Assembly: GCA_902524545.1 (NCBI GenBank)
Contig: CABZDW010000006.1
Span: 1-64,000 of the forward strand
Direction: 5' to 3'
DNA from: an uncultured Pelagibacteraceae bacterium
GTDB lineage: Bacteria; Pseudomonadota; Alphaproteobacteria; Pelagibacterales; Pelagibacteraceae
DNA length: 64,000 nt
The position numbers and the translations under genes were made by a program. Shown in pieces: positions 18,875 through 32,270 of this stretch. Positions within the stretch are counted from its first letter, which is position 1. Each line of letters starts with the position of its first letter. Below the pieces are notes generated by a model, which was not told where the DNA came from, did not search any database, and worked only from the letters and a program-made list of their open reading frames with translations.

Positions 18875-18899
18875 CATTTTAAGTTACTTATAGGACTAT
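18871..18899 (+). promoter_or_regulatory. Promoter of the gcvTHP operon
   Basis: TTGACA (18871-18876) is followed by a 17-base spacer and GACTAT (18894-18899), giving a good sigma-70-type promoter. Transcription would begin at about 18906, just at the start of the glycine riboswitch. The -35 overlaps the stop codon of the preceding permease gene. Confidence 0.7.
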
Positions 18900-18904
18900 T
18901 GATA

Positions 18905-19053
18905 CACGGGAGAGACTACAGATTATCGTGGCGCCGAAGGAGCAACTACCCAGGAATCTCTCAGGCGAAAAGGACCGTAACATATTAACTCTGGAAAGAG
19001 ATTTAGTTCTCGCCGAAGGAGCAAAACTCTCAGGCAAATATACAGATGGGTAT
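18905..19053 (+). promoter_or_regulatory. Tandem glycine riboswitch (gcvT element)
   Basis: Two consecutive aptamers are visible. The first (about 18905-18979) contains CGGGAGAGAC, GCGCCGAAGGAGCAA and CTCTCAGGCGAAAAGGACCG. The second (about 18987-19052) contains CTCTGG, CGCCGAAGGAGCAA and CTCTCAGGCAAATATACAGA. These are the hallmark conserved strings of the glycine riboswitch, joined by a short linker. The gcvT ATG follows about 12 bases later, which suggests control of translation initiation: glycine binding would turn on the glycine cleavage genes. No terminator hairpin is visible after it. Confidence 0.96.
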
Positions 19054-19064
19054 AATGAGTTAAT

Positions 19065-20168
19065 ATGGAAATAAAAAAAACATCTCTTTACCAATTACAC
19101 CAAGATTGTAACGCCAAGTTTGTTGAATTTGCTGGTTATCAGATGCCAATCCAATATTCTAAAGGTATTGTAGAGGAGCATAAATTCACAAGAAATCACT
19201 CAGGCATTTTTGATGTTTCACATATGGGTCAATTATTTATTTATGGTGGTGATGAACTAATTAAAGATTTAGAAAAAATTTTTCCATTAGATTTGAAAAA
19301 CTTGAAATTAAATCATTCTAAGTACAGCTTCTTAATGGATAAAGATGCTGGGATACAAGATGATTTAATCATTACAAAAATTAATGAAGGTTTTTTAGTA
19401 ATTCTTAATGCAGCGTGTAAAAAAGATGATTTTAAAATTTTACAGGAATTGTTAAACGAAAAGTATAAAATGGTCTTAGATGAAAATAGATCCTTAATTG
19501 CGATTCAGGGACCTAAATCATCACAAATCTTAAATGAAGTTTTTAGTGGGGTAAAAGATTTAAATTTTATGTCTGGAGACTGGTTCTTATTTAATAATCA
19601 GAAAGTATACATTACTCGATCAGGGTATACAGGTGAAGATGGTTTTGAGATATCAATTCCAAATAATTTTGCAGATAAATTGACTAGAGAATTGATTGAT
19701 AAAGGCTCAAGTTTAGTGGGTTTAGGAGCAAGAGATACTCTAAGGTTAGAAGCTGGCTTATGCTTGTACGGTCATGATCTTGATAAAGATAAAACTCCGG
19801 TTGAGGCAAATTTAAAGTGGGCAATTTCAAAAGAGAGAATATCTAAAGGAGACTTTATTGGTTCAGACATTATTATTAAACAATTAAATAATGGTGTAAC
19901 AAAAATTAGAGTTGGAATTAAACCTGAGGGAAGAATTATTGCTAGAGAAAAAACAAAAATATTTAATCAATCAGATGTTCATATTGGAGAAATTACCAGT
20001 GGTTCATTTGGGCCAAGTGTAAATGGACCTGTAGCAATGGGATATGTGGAAAATGAATTTTCAAAAAAAAATACTAAAGTATTCTTAGAGGTAAGAGGTA
20101 AAAAATATGCGGCAAGTGTTTGTAGTTTACCGTTTTATAAAAAAAGTTATGTAAAAGGACCGAATTAA
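19065..20168 (+). CDS. gcvT: Glycine cleavage system T protein (aminomethyltransferase)
   Basis: GcvT moves the methylene group from lipoylated GcvH to tetrahydrofolate, releasing ammonia and 5,10-methylene-THF. The 367-aa protein shows [48 protein letters not shown] and [22 protein letters not shown], all family hallmarks, with the folate-site aspartate in the DVSHMGQ region. It is the first gene after the glycine riboswitch. It overlaps gcvH by one base. Confidence 0.97.
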
Positions 20169-20548
20169 TGAGCGAGGTGAAATATTCTAAAGAACATGAA
20201 TGGATAAAATTAGAGGGTGATATTGCAACAATTGGCATAACAAAACATGCAACAGAAATGCTAGGAGATATTGTCTTTGCAGAGCTTCCAGAAAAAGGCG
20301 CTGGTGTAGAAAAAGATGGAACAGCAGGAGTTGTAGAGTCTACTAAAGCTGCAAGCGATGTCTATACCCCGGTAAGCGGTGAAGTTGTTGATACAAACCA
20401 AGAGATTGTGGATGATCCATCAAAAATAAATCAAGATCCTGAAAATTCTGCATGGTTCTTTAAATTAAAAATTAGAGATAAATCTGAAATGAACTCACTA
20501 ATGAATAAAGATGATTATGATAAATTTGCAAAGGAGAATAGTAATTAA
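20168..20548 (+). CDS. gcvH: Glycine cleavage system H protein
   Basis: GcvH is the lipoyl carrier that shuttles the aminomethyl group between the P, T and L proteins. The 126-aa protein has the family's start ([24 protein letters not shown]), ...[12 protein letters not shown]... and the lipoylation motif [19 protein letters not shown], with the modified lysine in ESTKA near residue 60. It sits between gcvT (1-base overlap) and gcvP (no gap), so the three proteins are co-expressed. Confidence 0.98.
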
Positions 20549-23419
20549 ATGCTACATAATTCTGAAAAAGATTTTATAAAAAGACATATTGGTCCATCTG
20601 AAGAGGATCAATTAAAAATATTAAAAAAATTAAATTATAAATCATTAGATGATTTTATTGATAATACTGTTCCAGAAAAAATACAGTTTAAGGGTGAACT
20701 TAATATTGGTGAGTCTAATTCAGAGTATGAAGCATTAAGAAAATTAAAAGCAATTTCAAAGAAAAATCAAATTTACTCAAATTTTATAGGCATGGGTTAC
20801 TATGGAACTTATACACCATATGTAATTTTAAGAAATATATTAGAAAATCCAGGTTGGTATACCTCTTATACACCTTATCAGCCAGAGGTAGCACAAGGAA
20901 GATTGGAAATGCTTTTAAACTTCCAACAAATGATCGTTGATTTTACAGGAATGGATATTGCAAATGCATCTTTACTTGATGAAGGTACAGCGGCAGCAGA
21001 GGCTATGGGTTTAAGTTATAGACTTGATAAAAGTGATAGTAATTTAGTCTTTGTCTCAGAAAATTGCCACCCTCAAACTGTTGAGATTATAAGAACTAGA
21101 GCAGAGCCTATGGGTCTCGAAGTTCTTGTTGGAAATGAAGACAAAGTTTTAGGACAATTAAAAGAGGATATTGTTTGTGGAATATTACAGTATCCTGGAA
21201 CCTTAGGAGACATTAAAGATCCAAGCGAGGCGATAAGTAAAATTCATAAAAAAAATGGTAAAGCTATTTTAGCTTGTGATCTTCTTGCGCTTGCTAAACT
21301 TAAAACGCCGAGAGAACTTGGGGCTGATATTGCAGTTGGCAGTTCACAAAGATTTGGTATTCCAATGGGTTATGGAGGACCACATGCAGCATTTTTTGCA
21401 ACAAAAGATGAATACAAAAGATCTATGCCAGGTAGAATAGTTGGTGTTTCAGTAGATAGACATGGAAACAAGGCCTATAGATTGTCACTACAAACTAGAG
21501 AGCAACATATTAGAAGAGACAAAGCTACAAGTAACATTTGTACTGCTCAAGCATTGTTAGCCATAGTATCAGCAGCCTATGCTATTTATCATGGTCCAGA
21601 TGGAATTAAGAAAATTTCTGAGAGAGTCTCTCAATTGGCAAAAAATTTTGCTGATAAAATAAAACAATCTGGATATGAAATATATTCTGATTACTTTTTT
21701 GATACTGTTACAATTATTACCAAAGATAAGACTGATCAAATTTATAAAAATGCTTTAAATCAAAAAGTCAATATACGAAAAGTAAACACTGAAATGCTTG
21801 CTGTTTCTTTTGATGAGAAAAAAAATGTTTATAGAGTAAATCAACTTTTAAAGATTTTTAATGCTGCTGAGTCTATAAAAAAGGAAGATCCAACAGTAAG
21901 TTTACCCAATTTACCAAAAAGTTTATTAAGAACTTCTAAATATTTAGAACATCCTGTTTTTAACTCATATCGTTCTGAGACAGAAATGCTTAGATATCTT
22001 AAAAAGTTAGAGGATAAGGATATAGCTCTCAACAGAACCATGATAGCATTAGGTTCTTGCACTATGAAATTAAATGCTACCGCAGAAATGATACCTATTT
22101 CATGGAGAGAATTAGCTGAGCCTCATCCATTTGTGCCTATTGAGCAGATGGAGGGATATAGGACATTATTCACTGATTTAAAAAACTGGTTAAGATCAAT
22201 TACTGGTTTTTCGGGAGTTTCACTTCAACCAAATGCAGGTGCTCAAGGCGAATATGCAGGACTAATGGTAATTAGAAAATATCATTTAGATAGAGGTGAA
22301 AAAAATAGAAACATATGTTTAATACCAAGCTCTGCACATGGAACCAATCCTGCTAGTGCACAAATGGTTGGAATGAAAGTGGTTGTAGTTAGTTGTGATA
22401 AAGAAGGCAATGTTGATTTTGATGACTTAAAGAAAAAAGTGGAGCTTCATTCAGAAAATTTAGGGGCTTTGATGGTTACATATCCATCTACTCATGGAGT
22501 GTTTGAAGAAAAAATTATGGATATATGTGAACTAATTCATAAACATGGCGGGCAAGTTTACATGGATGGGGCAAATTTAAATGCACTGGTTGGTATAGCC
22601 AAACCTGGAAATTTTGGTCCGGACGTTTGCCATATAAATTTACATAAAACATTTTGTATCCCTCATGGTGGGGGTGGACCAGGTATGGGACCTATTGCAT
22701 GTAAAAAACATCTACAAGTTTATTTGCCTAATCATCCAGTTGTTAAAGATTGTGGTCCAGCAACGGGAATTGGAGCTGTGTCTGCCGCTCCATGGGGAAG
22801 TTCAAGCATTTTGTCAATTTCTTGGATGTATATAAAAATGATGGGATCAGAGGGACTAAAACTAGCTTCTAAAGTTGCGATACTAAATGCAAATTATATT
22901 GCTGAAAGACTGAAAGATCATTATCCAATCTTATACAAAGGTTCTAATGGTAATGTTGCTCATGAGTGTATAATTGATATTAGGTCAATTAAATCAGAAA
23001 CGGGAGTCACTGAGGAAGATATCGCGAAAAGATTAATTGATTTTGGTTTTCATGCACCAACAATGTCTTGGCCTGTGGCTGGAACAATGATGATTGAACC
23101 TACAGAAAGTGAGAACTTGTCAGAGCTTGACAGGTTTTGTGATACTCTAATTAAAATTAAACAAGAAATTGATCTAATTAAAACTGGTAAATTTGATAAA
23201 GTTGATAATCCAATTAAAAACGCTCCTCATACTGACACTGAGTTGGCTTCTGATAATTGGACACACAAATATTCTAGAGAGCAAGCTGCTTACCCAGCAA
23301 AATTTCTAAAAGTAAACAAATTTTGGCCACCAGTTGCAAGAGTAGATAATGTTTATGGTGATAAAAATATTTTCTGTACATGTCCTAGCATGGATGAATT
23401 TAAAGAAGATGCAGCATAA
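20549..23419 (+). CDS. gcvP: Glycine dehydrogenase (decarboxylating), P protein
   Basis: GcvP is the PLP enzyme that decarboxylates glycine and loads the remaining aminomethyl group onto GcvH. This is the single-chain form (956 aa) with N- and C-terminal halves of the same fold. It shows DFIKRHIGPSEEDQ at the start, NIGMGYYGT-like FIGMGYYGTYTP, and the catalytic PLP lysine in NLHKTFCIPHGGGGPGMGP. The GSCTMKLNATAEM motif marks the start of the C-terminal half. With gcvTH it feeds the one-carbon pool, which in SAR11 is tied to a glycine requirement. Confidence 0.97.
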   Translation: MLHNSEKDFIKRHIGPSEEDQLKILKKLNYKSLDDFIDNTVPEKIQFKGELNIGESNSEYEALRKLKAISKKNQIYSNFIGMGYYGTYTPYVILRNILENPGWYTSYTPYQPEVAQGRLEMLLNFQQMIVDFTGMDIANASLLDEGTAAAEAMGLSYRLDKSDSNLVFVSENCHPQTVEIIRTRAEPMGLEVLVGNEDKVLGQLKEDIVCGILQYPGTLGDIKDPSEAISKIHKKNGKAILACDLLALAKLKTPRELGADIAVGSSQRFGIPMGYGGPHAAFFATKDEYKRSMPGRIVGVSVDRHGNKAYRLSLQTREQHIRRDKATSNICTAQALLAIVSAAYAIYHGPDGIKKISERVSQLAKNFADKIKQSGYEIYSDYFFDTVTIITKDKTDQIYKNALNQKVNIRKVNTEMLAVSFDEKKNVYRVNQLLKIFNAAESIKKEDPTVSLPNLPKSLLRTSKYLEHPVFNSYRSETEMLRYLKKLEDKDIALNRTMIALGSCTMKLNATAEMIPISWRELAEPHPFVPIEQMEGYRTLFTDLKNWLRSITGFSGVSLQPNAGAQGEYAGLMVIRKYHLDRGEKNRNICLIPSSAHGTNPASAQMVGMKVVVVSCDKEGNVDFDDLKKKVELHSENLGALMVTYPSTHGVFEEKIMDICELIHKHGGQVYMDGANLNALVGIAKPGNFGPDVCHINLHKTFCIPHGGGGPGMGPIACKKHLQVYLPNHPVVKDCGPATGIGAVSAAPWGSSSILSISWMYIKMMGSEGLKLASKVAILNANYIAERLKDHYPILYKGSNGNVAHECIIDIRSIKSETGVTEEDIAKRLIDFGFHAPTMSWPVAGTMMIEPTESENLSELDRFCDTLIKIKQEIDLIKTGKFDKVDNPIKNAPHTDTELASDNWTHKYSREQAAYPAKFLKVNKFWPPVARVDNVYGDKNIFCTCPSMDEFKEDAA

Positions 23420-23425
23420 TTATTG

Positions 23426-24664
23426 ATGAAAATTGCTGTAGTTGGCTCAGGCATTTCAGGATTAAGTGCTGCCTATTATCTATCAAAAAAAAATCACGTA
23501 GATTTATTTGAAAAAGAAGATCACTTTGGTGGTCATTCCAACACAATTGATCTAATGGTTGGAACCAAAAAAGTACCAGTAGATATTGGCTTCATTGTCT
23601 TTAATTTTGAAACTTATCCAAATCTAATTAATTTTTTTAATGAAAATAAAATTGAAATTGAAAAAAGCAACATGTCCTTTTCTGTATCAGTAGAAGACTC
23701 AAACTTTGAATACTGTGGAAAAGGATTAAATGGAATTTTTTCCAACAAGATGAATTTATTTAATATCAAATTTTTAAAAATGTTTTTTGATATTATAAAA
23801 TTTTATAAAAAATCCGACAAGCTAGATAATATAAATGAGAAAATCACATTGGGTGATTATTTGATTAAAAATAATCTTTCAAAAGAATTTATCAATTATC
23901 ATTTAATACCTATGGTGTCTGCAATCTGGTCGATGCCACCATATGCTGCAAACAAGATGCCTTTAAAATTCTTTTTAAAATTTTTTCAAAATCATGGATT
24001 ATTTAAACTTAAAAATAGACCACAATGGTACACAGTCTCAAATAGAAGCAGGTCGTATGTAAAAACAATTCTATCAAAAATTAGCGGAGAATATTTTAAG
24101 AATTATAAAGTTAATAAAATCATTAGTAAAACAAGTGGTATTGATTTGTATTACGGTGGAAAAAATGAATTTTTTGATTACGACAAAGTAATTATTGCAA
24201 CTCATGCGGACGAGGCATTATCAATGATTGAAAATCCAACTGATCAAGAGAAAGAAGTTTTGTCAAATTTCAGTTATAAAGAAAATTTGGCTTATATACA
24301 TACAGATGAGATAGTTATGCCAAGAAATAAGAATGCCTGGTGTGCTTGGAACTCATCTATGAAGAAAAATGAAATCGAAAAAAATTCAATCACCTATTGG
24401 TTAAATTTACTCCAAAATTTAGAGTGTGAAAAAAATATTTTTCTTACATTAAATCCATACCTCGATATTGATGAAACAAAAATTTTGCAAAAAGTTAAAT
24501 TCACTCATCCATATTTTGATCAATCTGCTTTAGATTATCAAAGTAAGCTTAAAAATTTGCAAAATAAAAGAAATATTCTTTTTTGTGGTAGTTATTTTGG
24601 TTACGGTTTTCATGAAGATGGAATAAAATCATCAATTGAAATGCTAAAAAACCTTGATGACTAG
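23426..24664 (+). CDS. FAD-dependent amine-oxidase-like oxidoreductase of the DUF1365/CFA cluster
   Basis: The N terminus MKIAVVGSGISGLSAAYYLSKKNHVDLFEKEDHFGGHSNT is a dinucleotide-binding motif of the NAD(P)/FAD amine-oxidase superfamily. The C terminus NILFCGSYFGYGFHEDGIKSSIE is the FAD-closing motif. The protein is about 412 aa. In proteobacteria this family is regularly beside DUF1365 and a cyclopropane-fatty-acid synthase homologue, as here, and is assumed to oxidise or desaturate a lipid acyl chain. The ORF track begins at a TTG; the ATG at 23426 is preferred. It overlaps the DUF1365 gene by 8 bases. Confidence 0.85.
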   Translation: MKIAVVGSGISGLSAAYYLSKKNHVDLFEKEDHFGGHSNTIDLMVGTKKVPVDIGFIVFNFETYPNLINFFNENKIEIEKSNMSFSVSVEDSNFEYCGKGLNGIFSNKMNLFNIKFLKMFFDIIKFYKKSDKLDNINEKITLGDYLIKNNLSKEFINYHLIPMVSAIWSMPPYAANKMPLKFFLKFFQNHGLFKLKNRPQWYTVSNRSRSYVKTILSKISGEYFKNYKVNKIISKTSGIDLYYGGKNEFFDYDKVIIATHADEALSMIENPTDQEKEVLSNFSYKENLAYIHTDEIVMPRNKNAWCAWNSSMKKNEIEKNSITYWLNLLQNLECEKNIFLTLNPYLDIDETKILQKVKFTHPYFDQSALDYQSKLKNLQNKRNILFCGSYFGYGFHEDGIKSSIEMLKNLDD

Positions 24665-25415
24665 TTCAATTTACAATGGAACGGTAACACACAAAAGATT
24701 TAAACCAAAAAAACATTATTTTAAGTACAGTGTATTTTCATTATTAATCGATTTATCTGATCTAAATAATCTAAATAAAAATACAAGATTTTTCTCGTAT
24801 AATCGATTTAATTTAATCAGTTTTTTTGACAAAGATCACGGTCATAGAGATGGCTCGTCTTTGACTGAATGGGTGAAAAAAAATTTAGAGGAAAATAATA
24901 TCTTTTCAAAAGATATAAGAATAAAGCTTTTGTGCTATCCAAGAATTTTTGGATATGTGTTTAATCCTCTTAGTGTTTTTTTTGTTTATGATCATAATGA
25001 AAATTTAATTTCAATATTATATGAGGTAAAAAATACTTTTGGAGAACAACATACTTATATTTTTAGAGTAGATAAAAATAACATGTCACAACACAACTGT
25101 TTTAAAAAATTTCATGTGTCTCCGTTTATTGAAATGAATTGTAATTATTTTTTTAGAATCCTAAAACCCTCTGAAAAAATTTCAGTTATTATTGATCAAT
25201 ATCAGCAAAATGAAAAAATTTTATTTGCATCACAAGAAGGAAAAAGGGCAGATTTTACAACCACAGAGTTACTTAAATCATATATAAAACACCCGTTAAT
25301 GACATTTAAAATTATATCTGCGATACATTTTGAAGCCTTTAAATTATGGCTCAAAGGAATAAAATTTGTAAAAAAAAAACTTAAGATTAAAAACAATATT
25401 ACTTTTGAGAATTAA
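24657..25415 (+). CDS. DUF1365 family protein
   Basis: This protein of about 252 aa has the DUF1365 features YNGTVTHKRFKPKKHYFKYSVFSLLIDLSDL at the start, LLCYPRIFGYVFNPLSVFFVYD in the middle, and KNTFGEQHTYIF. The biochemical role is unknown. The family is always near FAD oxidoreductases and CFA-synthase homologues, so it probably takes part in the same lipid modification. The ATG at 24657 is preferred to the TTG one codon earlier. Its stop overlaps the next ATG by one base. Confidence 0.88.
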   Translation: MTSSIYNGTVTHKRFKPKKHYFKYSVFSLLIDLSDLNNLNKNTRFFSYNRFNLISFFDKDHGHRDGSSLTEWVKKNLEENNIFSKDIRIKLLCYPRIFGYVFNPLSVFFVYDHNENLISILYEVKNTFGEQHTYIFRVDKNNMSQHNCFKKFHVSPFIEMNCNYFFRILKPSEKISVIIDQYQQNEKILFASQEGKRADFTTTELLKSYIKHPLMTFKIISAIHFEAFKLWLKGIKFVKKKLKIKNNITFEN

Positions 25416-26593
25416 TGGGATTATATAACTTTTCAGATCAAATCGTCTTCAAGATTTTAAAAGATATTAAGTATGGGTATTTAGAGATCACAAAATATAA
25501 TGGTGAATTATTAAAATTTGGAAACCCGAATAGTTCTTTAAAATCAGTTTTAAAAATAAAAAAGCCAAATTTTACTTTTAACCTAATAAAAGGAGGAAGT
25601 GTTGGTTTTGCAGAATCTTATATGAAGAATGAATTTGAAACTGATAATCTCTCAAACTTGATTGAAATTACTGCAAGAAATATTAAAATAATTTATAAAT
25701 TTTCGGGTCTATTTGACTTTCCAGTATTCAATTATGTAAGAAATATATTTATTAAGAACACTAGAAATCGAAGTAAAGATAACATTTCAAAACATTATGA
25801 CTTAGGCAATGAGTTTTTTGCACTATGGCTTGATAAAACTTTAACATATTCAAGTGCGATATTTGATGAGAAGAATAAAGATTTGTCTAATGCACAAAAT
25901 AATAAATATCAAAAATTAATCGATTTAATTAAACCGAACAATGGTGATAAAATCTTAGAGATTGGATGTGGCTGGGGTGGTTTTGCTGAATATTTAGGAA
26001 AAAAATATGATGTTAAATTGGATTGCATTACTATATCAAAAAAACAATTTGAGTATACAAAAAAAAGAATTCACGAATGTGGCTTAAACGAAAAAGTAAA
26101 TATTGAAATTAAAGATTATAGAGATTTAAAAAATAAATATAATTCAATAGCTTCAATAGAAATGATAGAAGCTGTTGGACAAAATTACCTAGAAAGTTAT
26201 TTTAAAACTATTAAAGACAATCTATCAGATGATGGAAGAGCTGCTATTCAGGCTATCACAATAGATGATAATATGTTTGACCGATATAAAAACAAGACAG
26301 ACTTTATCCAAAAATATATTTTTCCTGGAGGTTTTTTACCAAGTAAGAATATTATTAATAAATATGTCTCAGAAAATGGTCTAGCTATCAAGTCATATGA
26401 CTCCTACGCAGATCATTATTCTGATACATTAGCAATATGGAGAAATGAATTTAATAAGAAGTGGGATTTAATTAAGAAACAAGGATTTGATTTAACTTTT
26501 AAAAAAATGTGGGAATTTTACCTTTCTTATTGTGAGGCAGGATTTAAATCGAAAAATATAGATTTAATTCAATTTTCACTTCAAAATAAATGA
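25415..26593 (+). CDS. Cyclopropane-fatty-acyl-phospholipid synthase family methyltransferase
   Basis: This 392-aa SAM-dependent enzyme would transfer a methyl or methylene group to an unsaturated phospholipid acyl chain. The lipid-side motif HYDLGNEFFALWLDKTLTYSSAIF, the SAM-binding EIGCGWGGFAEYLGKK and the C-terminal YLSYCEAGFKSKNIDLIQFSL are all hallmarks of the CFA synthase family. The product could be a cyclopropane ring or, given the oxidoreductase partners, a methylated precursor of furan fatty acids, as described in Rhodobacter for related genes. That second option is inference. It is third in the run FAD oxidoreductase-DUF1365-methyltransferase-DUF3833. Confidence 0.9.
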   Translation: MGLYNFSDQIVFKILKDIKYGYLEITKYNGELLKFGNPNSSLKSVLKIKKPNFTFNLIKGGSVGFAESYMKNEFETDNLSNLIEITARNIKIIYKFSGLFDFPVFNYVRNIFIKNTRNRSKDNISKHYDLGNEFFALWLDKTLTYSSAIFDEKNKDLSNAQNNKYQKLIDLIKPNNGDKILEIGCGWGGFAEYLGKKYDVKLDCITISKKQFEYTKKRIHECGLNEKVNIEIKDYRDLKNKYNSIASIEMIEAVGQNYLESYFKTIKDNLSDDGRAAIQAITIDDNMFDRYKNKTDFIQKYIFPGGFLPSKNIINKYVSENGLAIKSYDSYADHYSDTLAIWRNEFNKKWDLIKKQGFDLTFKKMWEFYLSYCEAGFKSKNIDLIQFSLQNK

Positions 26594-26609
26594 TCTTTGA
26601 AGGAAATGA

Positions 26610-27158
26610 ATGATTAAACTAAAAAATAGCAAATCAATTTTATTGATAATTTTTCTTTTCTTAATTACAAACTGCTCAAAAAATAGCGCTATGAAACCAG
26701 AAGATTTTAAAAATAAAGAACCTAGATTAATTATTGAAAATTATTTGTCCGGCAATTTAAAAGCTTGGGGTGTGCTTCAAAATAGATCTGGAAAAGTCAC
26801 AAGACAATTTTCTGCAGATTTAAACGGAAAATGGGATGGTAAACAACTGATACTCGACGAAAAATTTAACTGGGATGATGGGGAAATTCAAACTAGACAA
26901 TGGCAGATAACTAAAATTGATGAAAATAATTATGAGGGTACGGCAGGAGATGTTGTTGGTAAAGCTAAAGGATATTCGTATGGTCCAGCCTTTAAATTTG
27001 AATATGTTTTATTAGTTCCAGTTAAAGGTAAAGAGATGAAAATTACTTTTGATGATTGGATTTTTAAACAAGATGAACGTGTAGCAATTAACAGGGCTAC
27101 AATGACTAAGTTTGGTTTCAAAGTCGCTGAATTAACTGTTGTTTTTGTAAAAGATTAA
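26610..27158 (+). CDS. DUF3833 family lipoprotein
   Basis: This 182-aa protein has a lipoprotein signal peptide with lipobox LITNC, so it would be anchored to a membrane on the periplasmic side. The remainder shows the DUF3833 pattern: YLSGNLKAWGVLQNRSGKVTRQFSADLNGKWDG and WQITKIDENNYEGTAGDVVGKAKG, ending in the MTKFGFKVAELTVVF strands. It probably forms a small lipid-binding barrel, but no activity is known. It follows the methyltransferase by 16 bases and belongs to the same conserved cluster. Its end overlaps the convergent SDR gene by 4 bases. Confidence 0.87.
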   Translation: MIKLKNSKSILLIIFLFLITNCSKNSAMKPEDFKNKEPRLIIENYLSGNLKAWGVLQNRSGKVTRQFSADLNGKWDGKQLILDEKFNWDDGEIQTRQWQITKIDENNYEGTAGDVVGKAKGYSYGPAFKFEYVLLVPVKGKEMKITFDDWIFKQDERVAINRATMTKFGFKVAELTVVFVKD

Positions 27159-27916
27159 TTTTTTTTTTGATATTTTGTAAGTTTCCCAATTAAGCCAAAA
27201 TAAATTTTGTTTGGTAAGAAACTTAATAATTTCAATATAGTTGTTAAAGATTTTGGAAAATGAATTTCAAAAGAATTTTTGTTTACTAAACCATCATAAA
27301 TTTTTTCTGCAGCATATTCAGAAGTTTTTAAGAAAGGCATTTTAAAATCATTTTTGTCAGTCATCGGTGTTTTAATAAAACCTGGTGAAACAAGACACAC
27401 CCGAACATTCGATCTACCAAAATCAAAATATAAACTTTCAGCTAAATTATTTAAAGCTGATTTTGATGGCCCATATCCAGTTGAATTAGGTAATCCTCGA
27501 TAACCAGCAATAGAGGAGACTATAGTTATTGTCCCACTTTTTCTATCTTTAAAATATTTTTCTACAGCTTTAATACTATTTAATGTTCCAAAAAAATTTA
27601 CTTTAAATACATTTTCAATTTGTTCAACATCAATATCTTTTTCTTTCTTGGGATCCCATGTTCCAGTTGAGAAAAAACAAATATCTACACTCTGGAAAAT
27701 ATCTACTATATTTTGAAAAACTTCTTTACATTTATTCTTATCGGTTACGTCTAATGGAAAAGAACTAATATTTTCATGCTCTCCACAAGTTTCTTTTAGT
27801 AAATTTTCACGTCTTGCAGATATTGCAACATTCCAACCTTCTTTGGCAAATTTTATTGCTAAAGCTTTACCAATTCCTGTGCTACCACCTGTAATCCAAA
27901 TAGTTTTTTTATTCAT
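27155..27916 (-). CDS. Short-chain dehydrogenase/reductase (SDR) of the lipid cluster
   Basis: This 253-aa Rossmann enzyme has the cofactor motif TGGSTGIGKALA near the N terminus and the catalytic serine, tyrosine and lysine as SSIAGYRGLPNSTGYGPSKSA. Two C-terminal hydrophobic stretches (TILKLLSFLPNKIYFGLIG) suggest membrane association. SDR enzymes of this type often accompany the amine oxidase/DUF1365/CFA cluster. The substrate is unknown, although a fatty-chain carbonyl would fit. It is convergent with the DUF3833 gene and divergent from tspO with fewer than 25 bases between. Confidence 0.85.
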   Translation of the reverse strand: MNKKTIWITGGSTGIGKALAIKFAKEGWNVAISARRENLLKETCGEHENISSFPLDVTDKNKCKEVFQNIVDIFQSVDICFFSTGTWDPKKEKDIDVEQIENVFKVNFFGTLNSIKAVEKYFKDRKSGTITIVSSIAGYRGLPNSTGYGPSKSALNNLAESLYFDFGRSNVRVCLVSPGFIKTPMTDKNDFKMPFLKTSEYAAEKIYDGLVNKNSFEIHFPKSLTTILKLLSFLPNKIYFGLIGKLTKYQKKN

Positions 27917-27925
27917 ATTATAAAG

Positions 27926-28408
27926 ATGTATAATACTAATATGCTAAAAAATAAATTTTATTCATTGATTCTTTTTTTAATTTTCACTTTTTCAGCATCA
28001 TTTATCGGTGGTTTAGTCTCTATAAGCTTCAAAGAGCCTTGGTACTCTGGACTTGTTAAATCGAATTATAATCCACCAGATTGGATATTTGCTCCTGTTT
28101 GGACAACACTTTACGTAATGATGACATTAGCTATTTGGTTCTTTTGGCACAGTAAACAAAGAGATATAAATACAATTTACATTTATTTTATACATATAGT
28201 TTTTAATGCAACTTGGAGCATTGTTTTTTTTGGACTACATCAAATATTTTTCGCATTAGTTGTTCTTATAATTTTGATAACTTTGATAATAATTTTGATC
28301 ATTAGATTTAAACGTGTCAATTTTGTAAGTTTTTACTTAATGATTCCATATTTACTTTGGTGTTTCTATGCTTTATTTCTTAATTATAACTTAATGGTAC
28401 TAAATTAA
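27926..28408 (+). CDS. tspO: TspO/MBR (tryptophan-rich sensory protein) family
   Basis: TspO is a five-helix membrane protein that binds porphyrins and other tetrapyrroles, tied to oxygen and light responses in alphaproteobacteria. This 160-aa form is rich in aromatic residues and has the family motif EPWYSGLVKSNYNPPDWIFAPVWTTLYVMM, followed by NATWSIVFFGLHQ. A second ATG at 27941 gives a form five residues shorter, and a TATAAT at 27929-27934 could produce a nearly leaderless mRNA. Its position beside a presumed photo-oxidative lipid cluster is suggestive. It abuts the next gene with no gap. Confidence 0.9.
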   Translation: MYNTNMLKNKFYSLILFLIFTFSASFIGGLVSISFKEPWYSGLVKSNYNPPDWIFAPVWTTLYVMMTLAIWFFWHSKQRDINTIYIYFIHIVFNATWSIVFFGLHQIFFALVVLIILITLIIILIIRFKRVNFVSFYLMIPYLLWCFYALFLNYNLMVLN

Positions 28409-29512
28409 ATGGATGATATTGTAATAGTTGGTGGGGGAATAATTGGTGTAGCTACTGCTTATTTTCTATCTAAAGAAGGAAGAAAAGTTAAAGTAATTGA
28501 GAGAGACCCAACTTATAAATCAGCATCTTTCCCTCTTTCTCTTGGCGGTTTTAGAAGACAATTTTTTCAAACAGAAAATATTTTGTTAGGTAAATTTGCC
28601 AGAGAATTTATTTTTCAAATACCAGAATTACTCAAAACGGAAAAAAATCCTAATCCTACAGCAAGCATGGTACCAAATGGATATTTATTAATGTTCGGCC
28701 CAGAACATGCAGACGAACAATATAGGGCTCTTGAAAATCATAAAGCATGTGACGCTGGAACAAAGAACATCAAAGGTGCCGAGTTGGATAAGTTTTTTCC
28801 TTATATAAACAAAGAAGGAATAGAAACGGCTACATTTACTGACAATAAAAGTGAAGGATGGATTGATCCTTTCCTTTTTCACACAGCATTAAAAAGTAAA
28901 GCGATAGAGCAAGGTGCAGAATTTGTTAAAGGTGAAGTTAAATCATTATCGGAAATAAATGCTAAAACGATAGTATCTGCCGCTGGATGTTGGACAAAAG
29001 AATTATTGGAAGATATTCCAGTTGAGCCTCAAAAGCACACAGTCTTTAGAGTTAAGTGTCCAAAACATATTCCTGAAATGCCATTAACCGGAGATTTAAC
29101 AACAGGAGTTTATTGGAGACCTGAAGGTAAAGAGTATTTAGCTGGTTCACCAAAATCAGTTTTTGATGCCACAGATCTCGAACCAGCTTGGGACGATTTT
29201 GAAGAATTGGTTTGGCCTGCTTTAGCTAAAAGAATTCCAGTATTTGAAGAACTGAAGTTAACTGGTGGTTGGGCAGGTTATTATGATTGTAATAGATTAG
29301 ATAATAATGCTGTTGTTGGAAAACATCCTAAATTTGAAAACGTATACTTAGCAACTGGTTTTACTGGAAGAGGGTTAATGCAAGCACCAGGAATTGGTAG
29401 AGCTTTAACAGAACTAATTACCACAGGCTCTTATCAATCGATTGATATTTCAAATATGGCTGTAGAGAGAGTATTAGGTACAAAAGCAAGGCCAGAACCT
29501 TACGTTTTATAA
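28409..29512 (+). CDS. FAD-dependent oxidoreductase, DAO family
   Basis: This 367-aa flavoprotein starts with DDIVIVGGGIIGVATAYFLSKEG, the FAD-binding motif of the D-amino-acid oxidase/sarcosine oxidase superfamily. The C-terminal part AVVGKHPKFENVYLATGFTGRGLMQAPGIGRALTELI is typical of the family. Such enzymes oxidise N-methylated or D-amino acids, giving an imine and sometimes formaldehyde. The substrate is not predictable here. It follows tspO directly and is 11 bases before the oxygenase-like gene. It could feed one-carbon or glycine metabolism nearby, which is inference. Confidence 0.85.
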   Translation: MDDIVIVGGGIIGVATAYFLSKEGRKVKVIERDPTYKSASFPLSLGGFRRQFFQTENILLGKFAREFIFQIPELLKTEKNPNPTASMVPNGYLLMFGPEHADEQYRALENHKACDAGTKNIKGAELDKFFPYINKEGIETATFTDNKSEGWIDPFLFHTALKSKAIEQGAEFVKGEVKSLSEINAKTIVSAAGCWTKELLEDIPVEPQKHTVFRVKCPKHIPEMPLTGDLTTGVYWRPEGKEYLAGSPKSVFDATDLEPAWDDFEELVWPALAKRIPVFEELKLTGGWAGYYDCNRLDNNAVVGKHPKFENVYLATGFTGRGLMQAPGIGRALTELITTGSYQSIDISNMAVERVLGTKARPEPYVL

Positions 29513-29523
29513 TAACTTTTTAA

Positions 29524-30225
29524 ATGCAAAAAATTTTTAATTTTTTTCCACTTACTGTTTATAAATCAACGCTCTCAATTTCAGAAAATGAAAAAAAAGA
29601 AATGATCGAAGAAGTTCGATCAATGGAAAAAAAAAGTAAAAATTTAGACTACAAATCAGCAAGTAAAGCCTGGACAGGAGATACCCAAGGATTTGAATAT
29701 CTGCACAACAATCCAAAATTTAAAAATTTATTTATTCAAATTAATAATTGTATTTTGGAATATTTAGAGAGTTTATCAGTTAATCATAAAAAGCTTGATC
29801 TTTATTTTCAGAGATCTTGGGCAACAATTTCAAAAAAAACAGAACATATTGATAATCATTCACATGACCAATCACATATTTCTATTGCATTTTATTTGAG
29901 GAAGCAAAAAGATGATGCTAAAATTATGTTTTTTGATAATTCTAAACATAATGAATTTATTCCCCAATTATTTAATTCAAGATCATTAGCTAAAGAAAAT
30001 ATTTTTAAAAAAAGAGATATATTAAATTCAAGTAAAGTTGTATTTGATACCAAAGAAGATGATCTGTTAATATTTCCTTCAAAAACAATTCATGGTACAG
30101 AACAAGGCAAATCTAATTCTGAGAGGATATCAATTTCGGCGGATATAGTATTTTTAGCAAAAGACTCATCAACACTAGAACATTTAGTTCCACCAGTCGA
30201 AAATTGGAAAAAATTTTCTAATTGA
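29524..30225 (+). CDS. Putative 2-oxoglutarate/Fe(II) oxygenase-like protein (TIGR02466 type)
   Basis: This 233-aa protein starts FNFFPLTVYKS and has SWATISKKTEHIDNHSHDQSHISIAFYLRKQ. This resembles the N-H-H-...-S-...-YL region of TIGR02466 proteins, which share the jelly-roll fold of 2OG-Fe(II) oxygenases. LLIFPSKTIHGTEQGKSNSERISISADIVFL supplies a distal histidine and an arginine in the expected order. The substrate is unknown, and similar proteins occur in marine phages and bacteria. It lies between the DAO oxidoreductase and convergent selO. Confidence 0.7.
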   Translation: MQKIFNFFPLTVYKSTLSISENEKKEMIEEVRSMEKKSKNLDYKSASKAWTGDTQGFEYLHNNPKFKNLFIQINNCILEYLESLSVNHKKLDLYFQRSWATISKKTEHIDNHSHDQSHISIAFYLRKQKDDAKIMFFDNSKHNEFIPQLFNSRSLAKENIFKKRDILNSSKVVFDTKEDDLLIFPSKTIHGTEQGKSNSERISISADIVFLAKDSSTLEHLVPPVENWKKFSN

Positions 30226-30233
30226 TAAAAAGA

Positions 30234-31688
30234 TTAAGTACCACAAAAGGTTTTATACTCTTTTGAAGAACTGTCCATTTTTAGATATTCTGAAATATTG
30301 TCTTGTTGTGTATATGGTTTTTTTAAAATTTCTAAAAGTTTATTGAATGACTCAAAATTGTTGTCATAAGCGTTTTCTAATGACTCCTCAACTTTATGAT
30401 TTCTGGGTATCACAATAGGATTAGCACTTCTCATTAATTTTATATATTTTTTTGGATTGTTATCATTTAATTTTAATCTTTCTTGCCAATTTTTTTTCCA
30501 GTTTCGAAAATTATTATCATTATATATTTTGTCGTCATATTCTTTAAGATTCATTAAATGACAAAAGGTATTTGTGTAATCTACTTTGTTCTGATGCATC
30601 CAAGTAAGCAAATCAACTATTAAGAATTTGTCTTTATTATCTGTACCTAACAATCCAAGTTTTTTTCTCATCATGTTCAACCATTTTTCCTCATATTTTT
30701 CTCCAAATGTATCAATTAATTTTGTTGCACTTTTTATTGCTTCTTTTTCATTTTTGTCGATTAAACGGATTAAACATTCAGCAAATCTTGAAAGATTCCA
30801 TTTTGTAATAGCTGGTTGATTACAGTAAGCATATCTTCCCATCTTATCAATTGAGCTAAAAACAGTTTTCGGATCATATCTATCCATGAACGCACACGGA
30901 CCATAATCAATTGTTTCCCCTGAAATTGTCATATTGTCTGTATTCATAACACCATGAATAAAACCAACACGCATCCAATTGACGACAAGATCAATTTGTT
31001 TATCAATAAGAGTTTCCAAAAGGTCCAAAGCTTTATTTTTTGAATTATCCAGACTTGGATAATGTCTTTTAACAACATAATCTAATAAAGTTTCCAACTC
31101 ATTTTTTTTATCACGTGCTGCAACATATTGAAAAGTTCCAACTCTAATATGACTTGAAGCAACTCTTGTTAAGATAGCACCTTGTAATGGATTTTCTCTC
31201 ATTATTTTTTCACCTGTTTTAGCTACTGCCAAACTTCTTGTCGAAGGAATATCTAGATTATGCATTGCTTCACTAATTATATATTCTCTTAGCATTGGAC
31301 CTAGTGCAGCTCTACCATCACCATTTCTAGAAAATGCAGTTTTTCCAGAACCTTTAAATTGAATGTCATATCTCTTGTTGCTATTTGTCAAATGCTCTCC
31401 GATTAGGACTGCTCTTCCATCCCCCAACATTGTGAAATGTCCAAACTGGTGGCCTGCATAAGCCTGAGCAATCGCATTACTTCCCTCCGGAAGGATATTA
31501 CCACAAAATAAAGCTGACAAATCACTTTTATTAATTTTAGTAAAGTCTAGATTTAATTCTTTAGCCAAATCTTGATTTACTAAAACTAATTCTGGATTTT
31601 TTACAGCGACGGGTTCAATATGCTCTTTAAATACATTAGATAATCTTGAATAAGAATTATCAAAATTCCAATTTATAGTATTCTTCAT
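30234..31688 (-). CDS. selO: Protein adenylyltransferase SelO (YdiU family)
   Basis: SelO is a pseudokinase-fold enzyme that transfers AMP to protein hydroxyls, with a role in redox stress. The 484-aa protein shows AQAYAGHQFGHFTMLGDGRAVLIGEH, FKGSGKTAFSRNGDGRAALGPMLREYIISEAMH, LRVASSHIRVGTFQY-like and FIHGVMNTDNMTISGETIDYGPCAFMD segments, the core of the family with the metal-binding N and D. The C terminus ends FCGT, so the C-terminal cysteine/selenocysteine position of other members is a cysteine here. Msr and glutathione genes in the window fit an oxidative-stress setting. Confidence 0.95.
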   Translation of the reverse strand: MKNTINWNFDNSYSRLSNVFKEHIEPVAVKNPELVLVNQDLAKELNLDFTKINKSDLSALFCGNILPEGSNAIAQAYAGHQFGHFTMLGDGRAVLIGEHLTNSNKRYDIQFKGSGKTAFSRNGDGRAALGPMLREYIISEAMHNLDIPSTRSLAVAKTGEKIMRENPLQGAILTRVASSHIRVGTFQYVAARDKKNELETLLDYVVKRHYPSLDNSKNKALDLLETLIDKQIDLVVNWMRVGFIHGVMNTDNMTISGETIDYGPCAFMDRYDPKTVFSSIDKMGRYAYCNQPAITKWNLSRFAECLIRLIDKNEKEAIKSATKLIDTFGEKYEEKWLNMMRKKLGLLGTDNKDKFLIVDLLTWMHQNKVDYTNTFCHLMNLKEYDDKIYNDNNFRNWKKNWQERLKLNDNNPKKYIKLMRSANPIVIPRNHKVEESLENAYDNNFESFNKLLEILKKPYTQQDNISEYLKMDSSSKEYKTFCGT

Positions 31689-31694
31689 AAAGAT

Positions 31695-32270
31695 TTATTG
31701 ACTCCAAATTCTTTTTAAAATTTCTTCTCTTCCACAAGCTTTTTTATAGCTAAGATATCTTTGTAATTTAATTTTATAAAAATCTTGATGGTATTCCTCT
31801 GCTTTATAAAATTTTTCAAAATTTCTTACATAAGTAACAACTTTTTTATCAAATTTTTTTTCCAACGCTATTATATCTTTTTCTATCAAAGTTTTTTCTT
31901 CTTCACTTTGATAAAATGCAACAGATCTATAGCTATATCCTTTATCACAAAATTGGCCATAGGCATCAAATGGATCAATATTAATCCAAAAATTTTTTAA
32001 CAATTCTTCATATGAAATAATTTCTTTGTCATAAATTATTTCTACAACTTCAAAGTGTCCAGTCTTTCCATATGTTACCTCTTTATAAGTTGGGTTTTCA
32101 GTGATACCACCTGAATATCCAGAAATAACTTCTTCAACCCCTTTTAATTTTTCAAACGACTCTTCAACACACCAAAAACATCCACCAGCAAAATATGCAT
32201 TATCTTTTTGAGCAGAATGAGAAAAATTTGAATTGATTAAAAAAAAGAGAATTATAAAAAAATATTTCAT
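31695..32270 (-). CDS. msrA: Peptide-methionine (S)-S-oxide reductase, exported form
   Basis: MsrA repairs methionine-S-sulfoxide in proteins. The catalytic motif GCFWCVEESFEKLKGV follows a signal peptide (MKYFFIILFFLINSNFSHS), so this enzyme acts in the periplasm or membrane. GYSGGITENPTYKEVTYGKTGHFEVVEI and YRSVAFYQSEEEK complete the core. At 191 aa including the signal it is normal in length. It is downstream of the formate dehydrogenase on the same strand and seven bases upstream of selO, another redox-stress gene, and they probably share a transcript. Confidence 0.94.
   Translation of the reverse strand: MKYFFIILFFLINSNFSHSAQKDNAYFAGGCFWCVEESFEKLKGVEEVISGYSGGITENPTYKEVTYGKTGHFEVVEIIYDKEIISYEELLKNFWINIDPFDAYGQFCDKGYSYRSVAFYQSEEEKTLIEKDIIALEKKFDKKVVTYVRNFEKFYKAEEYHQDFYKIKLQRYLSYKKACGREEILKRIWSQ

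Follow-up and report, generated by a model that had tools for sequence, protein, structure and literature searches.

The enzymes of the furan fatty acid (FuFA) pathway, UfaM, UfaD and UfaO, are known from Rhodobacter sphaeroides and Rhodopseudomonas palustris, UfaD being a flavin adenine dinucleotide (FAD) enzyme and UfaO a DUF1365 protein (Lemke et al. 2020, PMC7380195). R. palustris CGA009 carries RPA2571 (ufaD), RPA2570 (ufaO) and RPA2569 (ufaM) side by side and makes 9M5-FuFA; these orthologues were shown to form it on the 18:1 chains of phospholipids, the oxygen coming from O2 (PMC7380195). In R. sphaeroides, RSP_1089 is a GPH symporter, RSP_1087 is a short-chain dehydrogenase (SDR) and the photolyase gene phrA (RSP_2143) lies beside RSP_2144; the enzymes have two roles there, as they synthesize the scavenger lipid and are needed for full RpoE activation (PMC7074977). 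RSP1088 and RSP1087 are dispensable for FuFA synthesis in that organism (PMC7380195). Here we describe a predicted ufaD-ufaO-ufaM set (ufaDOM) from the SAR11 order Pelagibacterales, located in a compact six-gene block at positions 23426-28408 of a 64,000-nucleotide stretch (the window) of contig CABZDW010000006.1 from an uncultured Pelagibacteraceae bacterium.

The ufaD, ufaO and ufaM genes of the window

All three FuFA enzymes are encoded in the window, by the same three families and in the same order as in R. palustris CGA009, with the DUF1365 gene adjoining ufaD. The window ufaD is 34-41% identical to ufaD genes beside ufaO in other Alphaproteobacteria, and its ufaO is 42-48% identical to alphaproteobacterial DUF1365 genes beside ufaD. 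Judged by their sequences, genes 1-3 are orthologues of ufaD, ufaO and ufaM. They are best explained as a furan fatty acid pathway, a reading to which we give a probability of roughly 0.86, the product in SAR11 being predicted. A sequence-only reading of this stretch had already placed the organism in SAR11, assigned the six families (FAD enzyme, DUF1365, CMAS, DUF3833, SDR and TspO) and connected the set with the R. sphaeroides RpoE/ChrR regulon and with furan fatty acids; these points proved right. It had left the choice between a cyclopropane, a branched and a furan acid open, and the furan is now strongly favoured because UfaO is itself a DUF1365 protein (PMC7380195) and the methyltransferase is UfaM-like rather than like a cyclopropane fatty acid (CFA) synthase. 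R. palustris differs in also having FufM and making a dimethyl acid; we identified no counterpart of FufM in SAR11, a second CMAS protein of the genome not having been tested for that role.

In the proposed route, UfaM would methylate the double bond of 18:1 in phospholipid acyl chains without closing a cyclopropane ring (cis-vaccenate to 11Me-12t-18:1), and UfaD would desaturate the product to the methylated conjugated diene 11Me-10t,12t-18:2. UfaO would then insert an oxygen derived from O2 to form the furan ring, so that the end product is 9M5-FuFA or a closely similar acid. The furan acid would act as a membrane scavenger of singlet oxygen and so may play a protective role in SAR11.

Several points weigh against this reading. 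Synteny, family and clade are what the orthology is based on, and UfaD, a member of a broad FAD superfamily, is without a dedicated family model. Within the limited literature collection searched, no SAR11 lipid measurement with a furan acid was found, the SAR11 fatty-acid papers gave no furan or C19 data, and no paper linked SAR11 with furan fatty acids, save one on dinoflagellate volatiles that mentions both.

A pathway that ends at the branched or methyl-diene acid, with UfaO serving another role in SAR11, is favoured by the weaker conservation of UfaO than of UfaD and UfaM across distant Pelagibacterales (27-39% in family f2 and the sister genera). We consider this outcome very unlikely, since ufaO adjoins ufaD in each Pelagibacterales lineage sampled, and the key residues H12, R14, N126, Y134, K150 and H224 are invariant in an alignment of 58 UfaO sequences including those of SAR11. 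Y164 and K233 are likewise invariant in this alignment, and H132 is 97% conserved. An AlphaFold model built from the 58 sequences gave a confident, mostly-beta fold (pLDDT 91, pTM 0.90). Sequence search found no solved-structure relative of DUF1365, and the fold search returned weak beta-barrel matches only, nitrobindin being the best (E=1.6e-3), along with fatty-acid-binding-protein-like folds and nitrophorin, none at E<=0.001; a search against the viral library gave nothing useful. A heme or metal site in UfaO is a guess.

The methyltransferase and cyclopropane synthases

A CMAS search of 37 genomes yielded two kinds of full-length protein. In a quick tree of 91 sequences they split cleanly, with an SH-aLRT support of 100, into 63 UfaM-like and 28 CFA-like proteins, the latter including E. 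coli Cfa, and the window enzyme fell in the UfaM-like clade. This clade takes in the methyltransferases beside ufaDO together with the unlinked copies of five genomes (G442, G404, G518, G515 and G399), which carry ufaDO with no adjacent methyltransferase and a UfaM-like gene elsewhere. One of them (G442) has the layout chrR-ecf-ufaD-ufaO-GPH-DUF3833-SDR plus a distant photolyase-ufaM pair, resembling RSP_1093-1087 and RSP_2143-2144 of R. sphaeroides; this layout lends support to the view that the biochemically tested UfaM may fall in the same clade.

The two clades also differ in their active sites. C139, E239, H266, I268 and Y317 of E. coli Cfa form its bicarbonate site. All 91 sequences retain E239, I268 and Y317. 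At position 266 every UfaM-like protein has Gln (63/63) and every CFA-like one has His (28/28), and position 139 is Ser in 54 of the 63 and Cys in all 28, respectively. The window methyltransferase has S139 and Q266 and so lacks two residues of the CFA bicarbonate site. Plausibly, once the bicarbonate base is gone, a proton is lost from the chain of the intermediate and no cyclopropane is closed, which would give the UfaM product. A scan of named genomes with the UfaM of an R. sphaeroides-like genome as the query found 80 further UfaM-like loci in several phyla, with Gln266 in 80/80 and with ufaD and ufaO nearby in 67/80. Hyphomonas, Parvularculaceae, Photobacterium and Bdellovibrio were among the genomes it returned; R. 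sphaeroides and R. palustris were not. UfaM-like genes with Gln266 were seen in assemblies labelled Planctomycetaceae, Kiritimatiellota, Gemmatimonadetes, Acidobacteria and Bdellovibrio (L254, L263, L219, L206, L223), so the FuFA pathway may reach well beyond Proteobacteria. Gln at this position offers a one-residue mark that tells UfaM-like genes from genes annotated as cyclopropane synthases.

These residues also bear on whether the window enzyme is an ordinary cyclopropane fatty acid synthase, in a cluster that makes cyclopropane acids with the DUF1365 protein and the FAD enzyme as modifiers. It shares with the E. coli and Brucella CFA synthases the fold family and the S-adenosylmethionine (SAM) chemistry on an acyl double bond, retains E239, I268 and Y317, and matches CMAS and CFA models (in NCBIfam, CPFASynBruc with 257 bits and PRK11705 with 255 bits). 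However, these scores are far below the curated cut-offs of 600 and 400, the exchanges of His266 for Gln and Cys139 for Ser alter the bicarbonate site, and the UfaM-like clade is separate from CFA with full support. In addition, a CFA-type synthase is already present in the same genome: a second CMAS protein on contig 7 (20479-21270) has intact equivalents of Cys139 and His266 and clusters with alphaproteobacterial CFA-type enzymes. It is a candidate true cyclopropane synthase by sequence, a FufM role also being possible; any cyclopropane synthesis in this genome would therefore have a gene to itself. A cyclopropane product of the window enzyme was rejected on its clade and active-site residues, and we judge it highly improbable.

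Probable ancestral setting and loss of regulators

We compared the window with 39 other alphaproteobacterial ufaO loci, counting neighbours within the stretch read. The methyltransferase adjoins in the order ufaD-ufaO-CMAS in 32/39, DUF3833 lies near ufaDO in 20/39 and an SDR gene in 24/39, and a GPH transporter matching RSP_1089 stands beside ufaDO in relatives. A sigma factor of the extracytoplasmic function (ECF) type with ChrR, or a photolyase, was found at 33 of the 39 loci, ChrR being confirmed over the NCBIfam cut-off in two. By these gene neighbourhoods, the cluster as it occurs across Alphaproteobacteria also includes DUF3833, SDR, ECF sigma/ChrR and photolyase, and the 33 loci support a photo-oxidative-stress cluster as the ancestral state.

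ChrR (TIGR02451) was over the model cut-off in 0/118 Pelagibacterales genomes, the window's own genome included among those lacking it, and the SAR11 genomes tested have no ECF-type sigma factor, only RpoD and usually one RpoH-sized sigma. Judging by these searches, SAR11 has lost both ChrR and the ECF sigma factor. The earlier remark that no ChrR-like factor is seen stands, while its companion remark that no photolyase is seen does not: a photolyase gene lies on another contig of this genome, unlinked to ufaDOM, and one stands directly beside ufaD in sister SAR11 genera. Compared with R. sphaeroides RSP1091-1087 and RSP2143-2144, an oxidant-linked set of the RpoE/ChrR regulon, SAR11 shares UfaD, UfaO, an RSP1088-like gene, an SDR and a UfaM-like methyltransferase. 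The two differ in that the R. sphaeroides ufaM is unlinked, beside phrA, and the operon there includes the symporter gene RSP_1089, whereas the SAR11 ufaM sits in the operon, where no symporter was seen.

Two other Alphaproteobacteria with small genomes of 1.2-1.4 Mb (G540, locus L076; G739, locus L077) have retained ufaDOM, and the stretch read around it contains neither ChrR nor an ECF sigma nor a photolyase. A parallel loss of regulation in these two is possible. The association of proteorhodopsin with ufaO was considered as a test of a light role and proved uninformative, as almost all genomes of the order have rhodopsin (139/152).

The glycine riboswitch and the ufa genes in SAR11

In the window, ufaDOM follows gcvTHP and a tandem glycine riboswitch (Table 1). 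The riboswitch scored 60.0 bits with RF00504 in the window scan; when the genome was searched, the two aptamers gave 60.0 and 44.8 bits, both above the gathering score. The order gcvT-gcvH-gcvP-ufaD-ufaO-CMAS-DUF3833-SDR(-)-TspO was found in 9/9 window-type genomes read, from four Pelagibacterales genera, and this conservation as a block shows that the arrangement is not due to chance. gcvP lies directly 5' of ufaD in every window-type locus whose sequence extends there, and the riboswitch lies 5752-5790 nt from ufaO in each of the 15 genomes, spread over four genera, with both positions listed. Because the largest gap between the co-directional genes from gcvT to DUF3833 is 16 nt, and no plus-strand terminator-like site occurs between 18987 and 28500 in the window, a single transcript from the riboswitch to DUF3833 is predicted, and the operon appears to start at the riboswitch at 18897, well upstream of 23426. 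The six-gene block first recognized is real, with every gene an open reading frame (ORF) with strong Pfam matches, and its limits need adjusting: SDR, being convergent, lies outside the ufa transcript, as does TspO, and both are associated neighbours. The same riboswitch class has been described 5' of gcvT in HTCC1062 (SAR11_0666, PMC2704228); the published table names only gcvT as the flanking gene, whereas the transcript predicted here runs through ufaDOM and DUF3833. Linkage of ufa genes to gcv was seen only in SAR11.

Table 1. Features of the predicted gcv-ufa operon and its neighbours in the window.
Feature	Coordinates	Strand	Remarks
Glycine riboswitch, tandem, two aptamers (18897-18987 and 18981-19055)	18897..19055	+	Heads the gcv-ufa operon (predicted); Rfam RF00504
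gcvT, glycine cleavage T protein	19065..20168	+	ORF; synteny common to nine genomes
gcvH, glycine cleavage H protein	20168..20548	+	ORF; 1-base overlap with gcvT; synteny kept
gcvP, glycine dehydrogenase	20549..23419	+	Stop codon 6 nt 5' of ufaD
ufaD-like FAD amine-oxidase-fold desaturase (predicted)	23426..24664	+	NAD_binding_8 E=3.7e-15; Amino_oxidase E=1.5e-11; overlaps ufaO by 8 nt
ufaO-like DUF1365 protein	24657..25415	+	PF07103 E=1.8e-78; overlaps or abuts ufaM
ufaM-like SAM-dependent fatty acyl methyltransferase (predicted)	25415..26593	+	CMAS E=1.5e-83; UfaM-like clade
DUF3833 lipoprotein	26610..27158	+	PF12915 E=5.8e-61; starts 16 nt after ufaM; probable RSP1088 counterpart
SDR	27155..27916	-	PF00106 adh_short E=1.3e-44; probable RSP1087 counterpart
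TspO/MBR protein	about 27926..28408	+	PF03073 E=1.4e-37; same position in nine SAR11 genomes

In this arrangement ufaDOM, having lost the RpoE/ChrR switch, would form the 3' part of a glycine-riboswitch-gcvTHP operon, and the ufa genes would most likely be expressed steadily, in step with glycine cleavage, rather than induced by light. Glycine-coupled or constitutive expression has likely replaced RpoE/ChrR control, with co-transcription and the glycine response inferred; against this view, a promoter inside gcvP would be compatible with the terminator and promoter scans. The regulator that had been called missing is indeed absent as far as ChrR is concerned, yet it is not simply missing, as the genes stand behind gcvTHP and the riboswitch; a lack of light or oxidant induction would consequently be no argument against FuFA synthesis. 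Glycine coupling would possibly match the supply of methyl and one-carbon units to the SAM-using first step. For the HTCC1062 genes SAR11_0668-0673 (locus tags guessed), we found no published expression data in the literature collection searched. We tentatively suggest that methylated furan fatty acids are a permanent constituent of the SAR11 membrane, their synthesis coupled to glycine cleavage through the riboswitch and not to light stress, a proposal that falls short of an even chance.

Alternatively, the ufa genes may have their own promoter and answer photo-oxidative stress by way of RpoH or some other factor, in which case their linkage to gcv would be streamlined packing. This would be compatible with FuFA synthesis, and it draws on the packing together of unrelated genes in streamlined genomes, the one RpoH-sized sigma left in most SAR11 genomes tested, the photolyase-ufaDOM order kept in sister genera and a weak promoter-like match at 23323-23350. 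Such matches were no commoner than in shuffled sequence (44 vs 55), and the gcvP-ufaD junction with the riboswitch at its head is kept across four genera; we regard a separate promoter as rather unlikely.

Arrangements differ among lineages. In genera g1, g5, g6 and g7, gcvP lies directly 5' of ufaD, and DUF3833, SDR and TspO follow. In the sister genera g2, g3, g4 and g8 (L145, L146, L167, L169-L176) a photolyase gene lies directly 5' of ufaD-ufaO-ufaM without gcvP, DUF3833 was not found at the ufaDOM loci, and the glycine riboswitches found lie elsewhere. Family f2 has ufaDOM with neither gcvP nor photolyase as a neighbour. Overall, ufaO was present in 307/397 Pelagibacterales genomes and in 125 of the 151 high-quality ones. 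All 11 single-contig Pelagibacteraceae genomes listed carry it (G001, G003, G005, G007, G009, G011, G013, G015, G020, G026 and G158), so that gaps in the assembly may account for many of the fragmented genomes without it. In all probability G011 represents Ca. P. ubique HTCC1062, because its glycine aptamers (498458-498615 and 649787-649944) fall in the published intergenic regions 498458-498706 and 649763-649953 (PMC2704228); it carries the full block (L266).

Downstream of TspO in the window, at 28409-30225, a DAO-type FAD oxidoreductase gene abuts TspO and is followed in this genome by a TIGR02466-type 2-oxoglutarate-Fe(II) oxygenase gene; the DAO gene occupies the same place in most SAR11 loci read. 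SelO (a protein adenylyltransferase) and MsrA, both linked to oxidative stress, are encoded on the minus strand at 30234-32270, adjoining the block.

The enzymes described here add a new member to a known pathway; what is new is their regulator-free setting in a glycine operon and their near-core presence in SAR11. That SAR11 keeps them without RpoE/ChrR suggests that even one of the smallest genomes of any free-living organism profits from the lipid as such. The cluster points to bacteria as a candidate source of furan acids in the sea, and it leads to a clear prediction for strains in culture, since the HTCC1062 type genome carries it. If SAR11 cells do have these acids as a permanent part of the membrane, they would, given their abundance, be a large and overlooked oceanic source of furan fatty acids.

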